From: Flavobacteriales bacterium
GTDB lineage: Bacteria > Bacteroidota > Bacteroidia > Flavobacteriales_G > Salibacteraceae
Assembly: GCA_013204105.1 (NCBI GenBank)
Contig: JABMOM010000016.1
Location: forward strand, 1-50,773
Reading direction: 5' to 3'
DNA: 50,773 nucleotides
In this document: positions 13,450 through 19,864 of the stretch, piece by piece
Position numbering within the stretch: position 1 is the stretch's first letter
How the letters are laid out: each line of letters begins with the position of its first letter
Notes under the pieces: model-generated
What the model saw: the letters and a program-made list of their open reading frames with translations, nothing else
Database searches by the model: none
Told to the model about the DNA's origin: nothing
Position numbers and translations under genes: made by a program

Positions 13450-14142
13450 CTAGCAGTTGATATCCGTGAACCGTTGGATGTCCTTGACCAAACCAAAGAC
13501 CATCAGCGTATCGTTCTCCGTGATGGTGGTCTTGGAGGAAGGAACACCGAGCACGTGTTGTTCGGTGACCTGCTGACCATTCTTGTCTTCGTGAAACTCG
13601 CGTTTGATTGTAATCACGGTCAACTTGTACTTGTCGCGCAGGCCGATGTCTTCCAAGGAACGGTTGATGATGCCTTTTGGCGCCTTGATTTCAACAATCT
13701 CATAGCTGTCCGGCAATTCGAGGTAGCTCAAAATGTTCGGATTGAGCAAGCGCTCTGCGACGATCTTTCCTACTTCGTCTTCCGGGGAGAGGATCTCGCT
13801 AACGCCTATTCTCTCAAGTATCATACGTTGATGCTGGCCGTGTGCACGAGCGATGATGCGCTTCACGTCTAGTTCTAATAAGTGGGCGGCGCAAAGCAAA
13901 AGCGCTTCGAAGTCCTTTCCGATCGCCAATACAACCGCGTCCACCTCATGCACGCCTTGAGACATCAAGGCCTTTTTGTCGGTAGCATCCATCGTAATGG
14001 CGTGGGCTACGTCGTCTTTGATCGATTCGATGTGCACCGGATTATTATCCAAGGCAATGACTTCAGCGCCCTTCCCAGCCAGCACGGAAGCGATCGCCCT
14101 TCCAAATTGTCCCAGCCCTATTACCGCATACCTTTTTGACAT
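13450..14142 (-). CDS. TrkA/KtrA-type potassium uptake regulatory protein
   Basis: A 230-residue cytoplasmic RCK protein. The N-terminal TrkA-N Rossmann domain has YAVIGLGQFGRAIASVLAG (GxGxxG dinucleotide site) with acidic IALDNNP at the end of the second strand; the C-terminal TrkA-C domain covers about residues 140-225 (YEIVEIKAPKGIINRSLEDI). Such proteins gate TrkH/KtrB potassium channels on binding nucleotide. No channel gene is in the window: its neighbours are the proteases downstream and the ECF sigma gene divergently upstream. Length matches KtrA rather than the duplicated TrkA. Confidence 0.88.
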   Translation of the reverse strand: MSKRYAVIGLGQFGRAIASVLAGKGAEVIALDNNPVHIESIKDDVAHAITMDATDKKALMSQGVHEVDAVVLAIGKDFEALLLCAAHLLELDVKRIIARAHGQHQRMILERIGVSEILSPEDEVGKIVAERLLNPNILSYLELPDSYEIVEIKAPKGIINRSLEDIGLRDKYKLTVITIKREFHEDKNGQQVTEQHVLGVPSSKTTITENDTLMVFGLVKDIQRFTDINC

Positions 14143-14212: not shown

Positions 14213-14238
14213 TGTAACTTTACCCCGTTGTCGCCGTC
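14213..14238 (+). promoter_or_regulatory. ECF-sigma-type promoter of the sigma factor operon
   Basis: TGTAAC (14213-14218), 16-nt spacer, CGTC (14235-14238), about 18 nt before ATG 14257. The AAC -35 core, CGTC -10 core and 16-nt gap are those of ECF promoters such as SigW/SigM sites of Bacillus. The same TGTAACTT-N13-CCGTC string recurs before the outer-membrane gene at 15810-15835, which makes autoregulation likely. Confidence 0.72.
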
Positions 14239-14256
14239 TCACCCACAGCAACCTTG

Positions 14257-14745
14257 ATGACCTTGACCGTAAAAGAGTACAATAAGATCGTAGATCAATG
14301 GGCCGATGGCCTTTTCAGATTTGCCATGTCTATGTGCAAGGACGAGGATGTATCAAAGGATGCCGTGCAGGACGCGTTCGTTAAGTTATGGGAGCGTAGG
14401 GATCAAGTGGACCCGACCAAGGTGAAAAGCTATCTCTTCACGACGGTCAACCACAAGATCATCGATGGATTTAGAAGAGACAAAAAATATGAAGCCATCG
14501 ACGAAACACCCATCAATGATGCGACGCACCAGGAAAGTCACGATTTGCAGGAAATACTGCACGAAGCGCTCAACACGCTTCCAGAGATTCAGCGAAGCGT
14601 GATCCTTCTCCGCGACTATGAAGGATATAATTACGACGAGATAGCAGACATTACGGGCCTTACACTTTCGCAAGTGAAGGTCTACATCTTCCGAGGACGA
14701 CAGAAATTGAAACAATACATCGGAAGCATCGAAGCAGTACTATGA
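14257..14745 (+). CDS. ECF-family RNA polymerase sigma factor
   Basis: A 162-residue group 4 sigma factor. Region 2 spans about residues 15-75 (LFRFAMSMCKDEDVSKDAVQDA, split as LFRFAMSMCKDED and DAVQDAFVKLWERR, with KSYLFTTVNHKIIDGFRR for DNA melting); region 4 spans about 108-155 (TLPEIQRSVILLRDYEGYNY, then YDEIADITGLTLSQVKVYIF recognition helix). There is no region 1 or 3, as expected for ECF factors. ATG 14257 is used; the TTG just before is less likely. Its stop overlaps the start of the anti-sigma gene by 4 bp (ATGA), a usual sign of coupled expression of a sigma/anti-sigma pair. An ECF-type promoter lies just upstream. Confidence 0.93.
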   Translation: MTLTVKEYNKIVDQWADGLFRFAMSMCKDEDVSKDAVQDAFVKLWERRDQVDPTKVKSYLFTTVNHKIIDGFRRDKKYEAIDETPINDATHQESHDLQEILHEALNTLPEIQRSVILLRDYEGYNYDEIADITGLTLSQVKVYIFRGRQKLKQYIGSIEAVL

Positions 14746-15797
14746 GCCAAAAGATCGACATATCGAACTACGAACTACACGCCCTTGATTACATCGAGGG
14801 AACGCTGAGTCCGGCTCTTCATGACGCCTTCGAAGCTTTCCTTTTAGCCCACCCAGATGTATCAGAAGAAATCGAAGGCCTTCGAGAGGTGGAAGCCCTC
14901 ATCCCATTGGAAGGCTCCTTCGATAAAGCATCTCTTAAAATCAACGTGGCCGCTACGCCCTCAATCGACGCTTCAAACTATGAATCCTATTTCATTCATG
15001 ATGTAGAGGAGACATTAGATCAAGATGGGCAAGAAGAACTAGCACTTTTCCTAGACAAGAATCCGGCTCTCGTTCAGGACCACGCTCTTTATCAAAAGAC
15101 ACGACTTGCTTCGGACGTGAACGTAGTCTACCCTGAGCAGGCTGCATTGAAGCGCGCCATTCCACTTTGGGAAAACGCACGTGTGTACGCTTATCGAGCC
15201 GCTGCGATAGTGGTGCTTGCACTTGGAGGCATGACCGTACTCAATATGCTCAACGATGAGGTTTACATCCCCAGGGATCAGTCCATGGGCTACTCACTGA
15301 TGGAAGACCTTTCACCAACTGGCTCTGAAAAGACCTTTGCACCTATTCATGAGCGCTTCGACAATGATGAGCAAAGCACGATTTTAGCCACTTCCGCTGC
15401 AACCGCGGCACCTTCGCAACTGGAGCGTGAGAAATCACCAGAGAAATTGCCATCGCTCGTGCCACAACTCGGGGTCGATGCTACGGCAGCTTTCGAAGAG
15501 CGGGACTTGATGGCCTACAATCCAACGATTTCGACATGGTCCAGTGAGGAAGTGTACGCGCAGCAGGAACCAACCCGTGGTCAGGCGATGAACCTCAATC
15601 AACTCATCGGTAAGCGCCTCTTCGGCTTGGAGCCCAAGAATACCTCAACCACCAAAGACCTGATTCGTGAGGGATTTGTGAAGACGGTCGACGACCGAGA
15701 TGCCCTTGCGCTCAATACTTCAGACCCCGGCGATGACAAGCGCTCACTAGAGTTTATGGCCGGCAACTTTGGGTTCAAACGGGTGAATTACAAATAA
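14742..15797 (+). CDS. Probable transmembrane anti-sigma factor
   Basis: A 351-residue protein with one membrane helix at about residues 149-168 (AYRAAAIVVLALGGMTVLNM). The cytoplasmic half holds two similar copies of an acidic helical segment: residues 7-45 (ISNYELHALDYIEGTLSP, FLLAHPDV) and 76-112 (ASNYESYFIHDVEETLDQ, LFLDKNPAL). This is the look of an anti-sigma N-terminal domain, but the zinc ligands (HxxxCxxC) of ZAS-type anti-sigmas are absent. The remaining 180 residues are periplasmic, low-complexity and with no recognised domain. Overlap with the ECF sigma gene and position support the role; binding is inferred. The periplasmic part may be the signal receiver. Confidence 0.75.
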   Translation: MSQKIDISNYELHALDYIEGTLSPALHDAFEAFLLAHPDVSEEIEGLREVEALIPLEGSFDKASLKINVAATPSIDASNYESYFIHDVEETLDQDGQEELALFLDKNPALVQDHALYQKTRLASDVNVVYPEQAALKRAIPLWENARVYAYRAAAIVVLALGGMTVLNMLNDEVYIPRDQSMGYSLMEDLSPTGSEKTFAPIHERFDNDEQSTILATSAATAAPSQLEREKSPEKLPSLVPQLGVDATAAFEERDLMAYNPTISTWSSEEVYAQQEPTRGQAMNLNQLIGKRLFGLEPKNTSTTKDLIREGFVKTVDDRDALALNTSDPGDDKRSLEFMAGNFGFKRVNYK

Positions 15798-15809
15798 TTT
15801 TTCCCTCCC

Positions 15810-15835
15810 TGTAACTTCTTTGGACCGCCACCGTC
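15810..15835 (+). promoter_or_regulatory. ECF-sigma-type promoter before the outer-membrane gene
   Basis: TGTAAC (15810-15815), 16-nt spacer, CGTC (15832-15835), about 25 nt before ATG 15861. Sequence and spacing copy the site at 14213-14238, so the same sigma factor probably reads both. It lies 12 bp after the anti-sigma stop codon. An AGGA ribosome-binding-like string follows at about 15851. Confidence 0.7.
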
Positions 15836-18322: not shown

Positions 18323-19864
18323 ATGAGAGAAAAGTTTGAACGACTGGAAGCGAAAAAGTCCGAGGCAATCCTCGGGGGTGGAGAAAAGCGCATTGAAGCA
18401 CAGCATAAAAAAGGAAAGCTCACGGCAAGAGAGCGCATTGAACTCCTTTTCGACAAAGGGACTTTTGAAGAGATCGGAATGCTCGTCACCCACCGCAGTA
18501 CCAACTTTGGACTGGACAAACAAAAGTTCTTGGGAGATGGTGTGGTCACGGGTTATGGAAAGATAAATGGCCGTATGGTCTATGCCTTTTCGCAAGACTT
18601 TACCGTGCTCGGAGGTTCGCTTGCTGAAGCACATGCAGAGAAGATCGTCAACATAATGGACCTCGCCATGAAGAACGGTGCACCGGTCATCGGCTTGAAC
18701 GATTCTGGTGGGGCACGCATCCAAGAAGGTGTAGTTTCCCTGGGTGGGTATGCCGATATATTCTACCGCAACACCCGCTCTAGCGGGGTGATCCCGCAGA
18801 TCAGTGCGATCATGGGCCCGTGTGCCGGTGGAGCCGTTTACTCGCCTGCGCTTACAGACTTCATTTTAATGGTTGAGCATACAAGTTACATGTTCGTCAC
18901 CGGCCCGAACGTTGTGAAGACCGTTACCAATGAAGACGTGACCGCAGAAGAATTGGGAGGTGCTGACACGCATGCATCTAAGTCAGGGGTTACGCATTTC
19001 GCTTGCGAAAATGAGGTTGAAGCGCTTGAGCGTATCAAGCAACTTTTGAGTTACATGCCCTCCAATTGCGAGGATGAGCCACCCATGCTTCCGTATGAAC
19101 TGGGAAATGAAAGTCGCCCTGCACTCAATGAGATCATTCCAGATAATCCAAATCAGCCCTATGACATTCGTTCTGTCATCGACGGTACGGTAGACGAGGA
19201 CAGCTTTCTTGAAGTACATAAAGACTACGCGGAAAACATAGTGGTAGGTTTTGCCCGTCTCGCCGGCCGAAGCATCGGTGTGGTAGCCAACCAACCCCAG
19301 GTACTTGCCGGGGTGCTCGACGTGAATTCATCGAAAAAAGGTGCTCGCTTTGTGCGCTTTTGCGATTGCTTCAACATTCCGCTCTTGGTCTTCGAGGATG
19401 TCCCTGGATTCCTTCCTGGTACCGATCAAGAATGGAATGCGATCATCACAAACGGGGCGAAATTACTTTATGCATTCAGCGAAGCCACCGTGCCTAGGGT
19501 GACGGTAATCACGAGGAAGGCATATGGAGGAGCGTATGATGTCATGAATTCAAAACACATCGGAGCCGACATGAACTTTGCTTGGCCAAGTGCGGAGATC
19601 GCTGTGATGGGGGCTAAGGGAGCCGCTGAAATCATCTTCAGGAAGGAGATCTCAGAGGCAAGTGATCCAGCCGCTAAATTGAAGGAGAAAGAAGACGAGT
19701 ACGCCGAACTCTTCGCCCACCCCTACAATGCTGCAGCACGCGGGTATATTGACGAAATTATCCTGCCTGAAAAAACACGTGAAAAGTTGATCCGGGCCTT
19801 CGAAATGCTCGAGAATAAAGTGGAAACATTACCTAAAAAGAAGCACGGAAACATTCCGCTCTGA
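18323..19864 (+). CDS. pccB: Acyl-CoA carboxylase beta subunit (propionyl-CoA type)
   Basis: A 513-residue carboxyltransferase subunit, which transfers carboxyl from biotin to acyl-CoA, normally propionyl-CoA to give methylmalonyl-CoA. Two crotonase-like halves are seen: N-terminal [54 protein letters not shown] and the oxyanion-hole-like [17 protein letters not shown]-terminal [26 protein letters not shown] and [17 protein letters not shown]. The alternative in this family is a sodium-pumping methylmalonyl-CoA decarboxylase subunit. No biotin carboxylase or biotin carrier gene is beside it. With the epimerase at 1046 it points to an active methylmalonyl-CoA pathway. Convergent with a small gene 7 bp away. 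Confidence 0.9.

Follow-up and report, generated by a model that had tools for sequence, protein, structure and literature searches.

The window, by which we mean the whole 50,773-nucleotide stretch analysed here, is one contig of a draft genome of 3.1 Mb and carries a three-gene cassette that encodes an ECF sigma factor, an anti-sigma factor and an outer-membrane barrel protein, with a short promoter-like sequence in front of the first and the third gene (Table 1). In the 162-residue sigma protein a Pfam search finds sigma regions 2 and 4 and no other domain (PF04542 and PF08281); its gene has a TTG at 14254 as an alternative start. The same kind of search leaves the anti-sigma protein without a family, and PF13490 is reached at E 0.01 by only three of the 63 rows of the anti-sigma alignment. 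Comparison of the two N-terminal domain copies with hhalign gave a probability of 99.1 and identifies them as a tandem repeat, which among the chosen alignment rows occurs as two copies in 54 of 63, three in eight and one in a single row. The AlphaFold model built from these 63 rows (pLDDT 72.4, pTM 0.39) contains helices within residues 10-119, a long helix at 142-171 and a disordered stretch of about 110 residues (172-284, block pLDDT 42-57) between the membrane helix and the C-terminal fold, and shows no C-terminal barrel on the same polypeptide; a hydrophobic peak near the place of the membrane helix is found in most of the orthologs listed.

Foldseek returned no match at E <= 0.001 for either the anti-sigma or the barrel protein. 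When Foldseek's own list was re-aligned, a comparison limited to the families on that list, the best structural match of domain copy 1 was the M. tuberculosis anti-sigma factor RslA (3hug; Z 6.1, rmsd 2.7, 54 of 56 residues, next row at 3.6), a modest score that fits an anti-sigma role. The barrel model (46 rows, pLDDT 79.8) shows about 98 loosely folded residues followed by a small barrel, and its Foldseek matches, all above the E-value limit given above, include the Ail and OmpA barrels with probabilities of up to 1.00; PF13568 is found in 40 and DUF2807 in six of the 46 chosen barrel rows. At the 19 Sigma70_r2 loci of the genome, the anti-sigma domain of the window occurs only at the window locus. 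The cassette is flanked upstream by a divergent TrkA-like gene (13450-14142) and downstream by a frame at 18323-19864 that we take, from reading its sequence, to be acyl-CoA carboxylase-like and that follows the cassette in six of the relatives' loci listed as well. A longer domain array was seen in one further genome (L303:2560-4533, minus strand), where an anti-sigma protein encoded beside its sigma gene has the N-terminal double domain followed by four more domain matches in a row.

Table 1. Features of the cassette in the window and of the fused relatives; positions are those of the window unless a locus is named.
Feature	Position	Strand	Basis or remark
Putative ECF-type promoter 1, TGTAACTT-N14-CGTC	14213..14238 (as CGTCTCA up to 14241)	+	Before the sigma gene; exact match, site in 86/106 non-redundant loci
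ECF sigma factor gene, 162 aa, regions 2 and 4	14257..14745	+	PF04542 and PF08281 above cut-off
Anti-sigma factor gene, 351 aa	14742..15797	+	4 bp overlap with sigma stop (ATGA); AlphaFold model
Putative anti-sigma domain copy 1, residues 1-68	14742..14945	+	Own repeat model, E 5.8e-19
Putative anti-sigma domain copy 2, residues 74-138	14961..15155	+	Own repeat model, E 2.4e-22
Predicted membrane helix, residues 142-171	15165..15254	+	AlphaFold helix
Predicted small C-terminal fold, two helices and three strands, residues 285-350	15594..15791	+	AlphaFold block pLDDT 55-78, low to moderate confidence; C-terminal ends aligned
Putative ECF-type promoter 2, TGTAACTT-N14-CGTC	15810..15835 (as CGTCCTA up to 15838)	+	Exact match; 12 bp 3' of the anti-sigma stop
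Outer-membrane barrel protein gene, 299 aa	15861..16760	+	PF13568, E 2.5e-10; signal-like helix, N-terminal part of about 98 residues, barrel of about eight strands
Anti-sigma fused to PorP/SprF barrel	L124:2368-4032, L300:1023-2690, L301:2374-4050	-	Three genomes, one genus

A sequence-only reading of the window had pointed to the pattern TGTAACTT-N13-CCGTC as occurring twice, and this is exactly what was found: two copies, both intergenic and on the plus strand, where 100 dinucleotide shuffles of the window contain none. The looser pattern TGTAAC-N15-17-CGTC returns the same two matches against 0.16 expected from shuffles. The first copy starts 44 bp and ends 18 bp before the ATG of the sigma gene, so that a promoter-like sequence with an AAC -35 and a CGT -10 element stands before the sigma factor's own gene, and the second ends 25 bp before the ATG of the barrel gene. 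The extra C in front of CGTC had to be dropped from the motif, as this base is not conserved among 87 sigma promoters of orthologous loci; the improved motif is TGTAACTTT...CGTCNYA.

In order to follow the two sites across related loci, the sigma gene was traced in 60 genomes including its own, 33 of which gave a match at E <= 1e-25, and in a second sample of one genome per species that comprised the best 80 of at least 579 confirmed. Many of the sampled genomes are metagenome assemblies, and the closest named relatives of the window's sigma factor among the matches listed are metagenome genomes labelled Salibacteraceae or Flavobacteriales. The 116 sigma records were reduced to 108 by removal of exact duplicates of a 140-base stretch, and 106 of these have 200 bp of upstream sequence. 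TGTAAC-N15-17-CGT lies within this distance before the sigma gene in 86 of the 106 loci, compared with none on the reverse strand and a mean of 0.23 (maximum 1) in 30 dinucleotide shuffles. At 87 sigma sites the gap between TGTAAC and CGT, searched from 15 to 17, is either 16 (56 sites) or 17 (31 sites), and columns outside the search pattern are conserved too: the two T following TGTAAC in 75 and 76 sites, the C after CGT in 82 and the A of CGTCNYA in all 87.

Many Bacteroidota share the gene order of ECF sigma factor, anti-sigma factor and outer-membrane barrel. Where 3 kb of downstream sequence was available (92 loci), the frame after the sigma gene encodes an anti-sigma protein at 87 loci, and 64 of the 92 include a barrel of the window's family, as judged with models built partly from the loci they scanned. 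The site stands at the barrel start in 50 of the 64 loci with a barrel and in none on the reverse strand. A strict site is missing from 20 of the 106 sigma genes and 14 of the 64 barrels, several of which have a one-letter variant. As the loci are akin to one another, all these conservation counts are non-independent draws. In genome G038 the cassette stretch has no barrel, and a barrel homolog that shares 76% identity with the barrel in the cassette of G036, a genome of the same genus, sits on another contig, still preceded by TGTAACTT...CGTC. The alignments behind the models and domain counts were assembled as follows: the sigma alignment has 17 rows and leaves out interrupted genes and further relatives; the anti-sigma alignment took 62 of 77 listed frames, three being of another or unsure kind and twelve more being omitted by hand for size; the barrel alignment took 45 of 58 next-gene frames, the 13 omitted having been judged by eye as unsure or not this barrel. 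Counts drawn from the latter two rest on chosen rows.

The sigma gene is disrupted in five of twelve relatives of the same genus (L091, L094, L100, L102 and L103). In G009 and G007 it contains an in-frame TAG, with both promoters, the anti-sigma gene and the barrel gene kept; in G011 its start is blocked and one stretch is aberrant, in G001 a deletion joins it to the barrel, and in G010 it is truncated with an unrelated frame downstream. Reassignment of the stop codon was considered for the TAG in G009 and G007 and is unlikely, since other long frames there end in TAG. It seems that the circuit is dispensable in these relatives or that some of the assemblies are wrong.

The conserved position, spacing and strand strongly support the view that one kind of ECF promoter autoregulates the sigma operon and controls the barrel gene, as far as sequence can tell. 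Both sites are very probably promoters of a single ECF sigma factor, serving the sigma operon and the barrel gene, with the sigma factor held by the anti-sigma protein until an envelope signal arrives. The autoregulated circuit with a barrel target that the sequence-only reading had put forward is borne out in the placement of its promoters (86/106 and 50/64 loci); that the cassette sigma reads both of them, and more generally which sigma reads which site, we infer. Promoter 1 would drive the overlapping sigma and anti-sigma pair, and since the two genes share it, active sigma would raise both itself and its inhibitor, while promoter 2 would give the barrel gene a start of its own besides any read-through. 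At rest, the tandem cytoplasmic domains of the anti-sigma protein would hold the sigma factor at the inner membrane; a presumed envelope signal, passed through the disordered periplasmic tether and the C-terminal fold, would free it, and freed sigma would transcribe its own operon and the barrel gene. The result is probably a small self-controlling circuit that watches the cell surface, in which the signal, the release of sigma and a sensing role of the barrel are presumed.

Cell-surface signalling of the FecI/FecR/FecA type likewise combines a sigma factor, a membrane anti-sigma factor and an outer-membrane protein. The cassette shares these three components and differs in that Pfam finds neither a FecR domain nor a TonB-dependent receptor in the window's anti-sigma and barrel proteins at E 0.1. 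The best NCBIfam match of the sigma factor is the GFO_1088/PG0214 family (NF058625), which is matched at E <= 1e-20 by each of the 17 sigma alignment rows, although the window protein, at 124.3 bits, stays just below the curated cut-off of 130 and so is not assigned to the family. At the promoter level, the sites resemble the SM6 promoters of Flavobacterium psychrophilum, whose CGT box at -10 is ascribed to ECF sigma factors in the part of that study consulted (PMC9723704). One SM6 promoter stands before a gene pair for an ECF sigma and an anti-sigma factor, whereas the SM6 genes, unlike those of the window cassette, include type IX secretion components (PMC9723704); the comparison covers the -10 part. 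The type of circuit is already known, because AAC and CGT boxes are usual for studied ECF sigma factors and are named, together with positive autoregulation, as their hallmarks in the consulted part of a further source (PMC8103513); the newer part is the split, tandem-domain layout and its breadth. A literature search by title and abstract for the motif, the cassette and the anti-sigma with PorP and SprF found no description of them, and the portions seen of five papers (PMC7366714, PMC4800418, PMC5607195, PMC12596196, PMC8999054) contain no matching promoter or cassette.

The closest known design is that of the Dma/Das dual membrane-spanning anti-sigma systems of Bacteroides (Dma1/Das1 and Dma2/Das2), in which, according to the part of the report available to us, an ECF sigma factor is encoded beside a protein with an N-terminal anti-sigma domain and a barrel in the same chain, and das2 and its operon neighbours rise in a dma2 mutant (PMC13088901). 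Like these, the window cassette pairs a Bacteroidota ECF sigma with an anti-sigma protein that has a putative N-terminal anti-sigma domain, and it has a predicted membrane helix and long disordered tether (in a model of pTM 0.39) with a barrel at the outer-membrane end. Unlike the Dma proteins as described there, the window has its barrel in a separate gene with its own sigma-type promoter, two putative tandem anti-sigma domains and a small predicted C-terminal fold in place of the barrel.

The one-chain arrangement was also found among relatives of the cassette. In G051, G131 and G163, which belong to one genus, the gene after a related sigma gene encodes a protein of 555-559 residues with a C-terminal PorP/SprF barrel (E 5e-30, 1e-28 and 2e-25). 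The N-terminal anti-sigma domain is present as one copy in G131 and G163, and the G051 protein matches the anti-sigma model. Their sigma factors group beside 53 other cassette sigmas in the sampled tree, whose deep forks are partly open, and the sites upstream of their genes have TGTAAC with a TGT-type -10 box. Mainly because the order within the fused chain, in a sister lineage, matches the Dma design, analogy suggests that the anti-sigma and barrel proteins of the cassette work together.

The cassette looks like a split counterpart of the Dma/Das trans-envelope systems, with a sensing role assigned by analogy. Carried further, it may be a two-gene trans-envelope sensor in which the anti-sigma protein spans the periplasm, its C-terminal fold docks on the separate barrel and the same-sigma promoter closes a loop of barrel supply or assembly, a split Dma form that would be widespread in the window's class; we regard this fuller model as possible though doubtful. 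The tandem anti-sigma domains may set how much sigma one inhibitor holds. A competing account, in which the barrel takes no part in sensing and is an output only, such as an envelope-repair protein, and the anti-sigma protein answers another periplasmic cue, falls somewhat short of an even chance. It draws on the 28 of 92 loci that have no barrel of the window's family in the stretch covered, at least 23 of which keep the anti-sigma gene, and is opposed by three genomes of a single genus in which a related anti-sigma is fused to a PorP/SprF barrel, by the same one-chain order in the Dma proteins (PMC13088901, as seen in part) and by the C-terminal fold predicted beyond the disordered tether.

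Class I anti-sigma domains are reported near only 6% of Bacteroidetes ECF sigma factors, compared with an average of 32% (PMC7406223, in the part consulted). Part of this gap may be a problem of detection, because 87/92 loci have, behind the sigma gene, an anti-sigma protein gene without a Pfam name, and a model of this protein found matches in 79 of the 149 genomes sampled from the window's class. One likely direct target, the outer-membrane barrel, is marked out by the conserved promoter pair, which also opens to testing in cultured species whether an outer-membrane protein reports its own supply or assembly through an anti-sigma factor. Among cultured carriers, the two sites are present together in the cassette of Draconibacterium orientale, Prolixibacter bellariivorans, Labilibaculum filiforme, Marinifilum caeruleilacunae and Alkaliflexus imshenetskii, none of which is known to be pathogenic.

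To assess how far the regulon reaches, we searched the whole genome with TGTAAC-N15-17-CGTC, which gave 15 matches against 26 for the reversed pattern; the shuffle expectation for the window, scaled to 3.1 Mb, is about 10. A strict search with TGTAACTT-N13-15-CGTC in 25 genomes returned 41 matches and 74 for its reverse, so that the number of matches was rejected as proof of a regulon, and only position before genes separates the motif from its control. Eight of the 15 matches, and none of the 26 controls, lie outside coding frames and within 60 bp before a gene (Fisher p 7e-5, in a test designed after a first look at the data); the window's barrel site was assigned separately, since the scanned stretch ended inside the barrel gene. 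The idea that the motif would lead to the rest of the regulon through its occurrence near gene starts is weakly supported. A match on contig C38 was considered as a third sigma promoter and rejected, as it lies inside the upstream frame, presumably thiolase-like from its sequence.

The eight gene-proximal sites are the window pair, two before tandem genes for 102-residue secreted proteins on contig C6, two on contig C17 (one at a second ECF sigma gene, one at the gene divergent from it), and one each before an ABC-transporter ATPase gene and a gene for a 497-residue secreted protein. Only the window and C6 pairs combine the TT with the CGTCNYA tail. The 41 strict matches in 25 genomes divide into 25 in the cassette, five before C6-type genes and 11 others, three of which precede frames with signal-like starts by a first classifier, among them the off-cassette barrel homolog of G038; a second look added two in G003, one of them preceding the orthologous ABC-transporter ATPase gene and the other a small frame with a signal. 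Judged by this distribution, the conserved regulon is essentially the cassette with its barrel, and other members would be lineage-specific or belong to other sigma factors.

The ABC-transporter ATPase is a candidate for a conserved member. Among its 14 matches, the gene is preceded by a strict site in three genomes (the window's own, G003 and G046) and by a one-letter variant in a fourth, G015; the -10 box is gone from the G009 copy, and G046 has no cassette-sigma match at E 1e-25. For the small secreted proteins of C6 and their orthologs in G009 and G001, control by the cassette sigma is plausible from their sites, a conclusion we hold back because that sigma is disrupted in both of these genomes. 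At C6 itself (L001:6671-7987) the two secreted paralogs each have TGTAACTTTTTA...GGGCGTCATA 26 bp before the start, and this type of site is kept in two G009 copies and one distant G001 copy; further upstream the pair shows a repeated GTACTTTGTATTGCATAGTA-like stretch, and nearby lies a regulator gene that we take, by reading, to be PadR-like.

On C17 (L002:1456-2467) the second ECF sigma gene and a divergent gene for a 110-residue membrane protein lie back to back, each behind its own TGTAACCGAT...GCGTCAAA site of the form TGTAAC-N16-CGTC, which looks like another autoregulated ECF circuit with shifted specificity. It is unlikely, as we see it, that the cassette sites are read mainly or also by another ECF sigma with a TGTAAC/CGTC core, which would make an overlapping ECF network of what we take to be a closed loop. 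Cross-talk is conceivable from the TGTAACCG...CGTCAAA sites of the C17 pair, and G001 and G009 keep intact TGTAACTT sites before small secreted-protein genes despite a truncated or interrupted cassette sigma; the F. psychrophilum study, in the part seen, also leaves room for several ECF sigmas sharing one CGT-box motif (PMC9723704). However, the C17 sites differ in the two bases after TGTAAC and have AAA rather than NYA as the -10 tail, and in the sampled tree the cassette sigmas stand apart from the five other ECF sigmas of the genome that were included, although these have long branches. That the two window sequences are alike merely by chance can be dismissed as negligibly probable, for despite a loose motif no commoner genome-wide than its reverse, dozens of loci in different genomes keep the position, strand and spacing of the sites and the own-genome matches, in the test set after a first look, concentrate directly before genes. 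The closed loop of cassette and barrel remains our preferred reading.

An arrangement that recalls the C6 pair was seen in G015, where around position 2037 of L243 two small frames with signal-like starts each follow a TGTAAC...CGTC site of their own.
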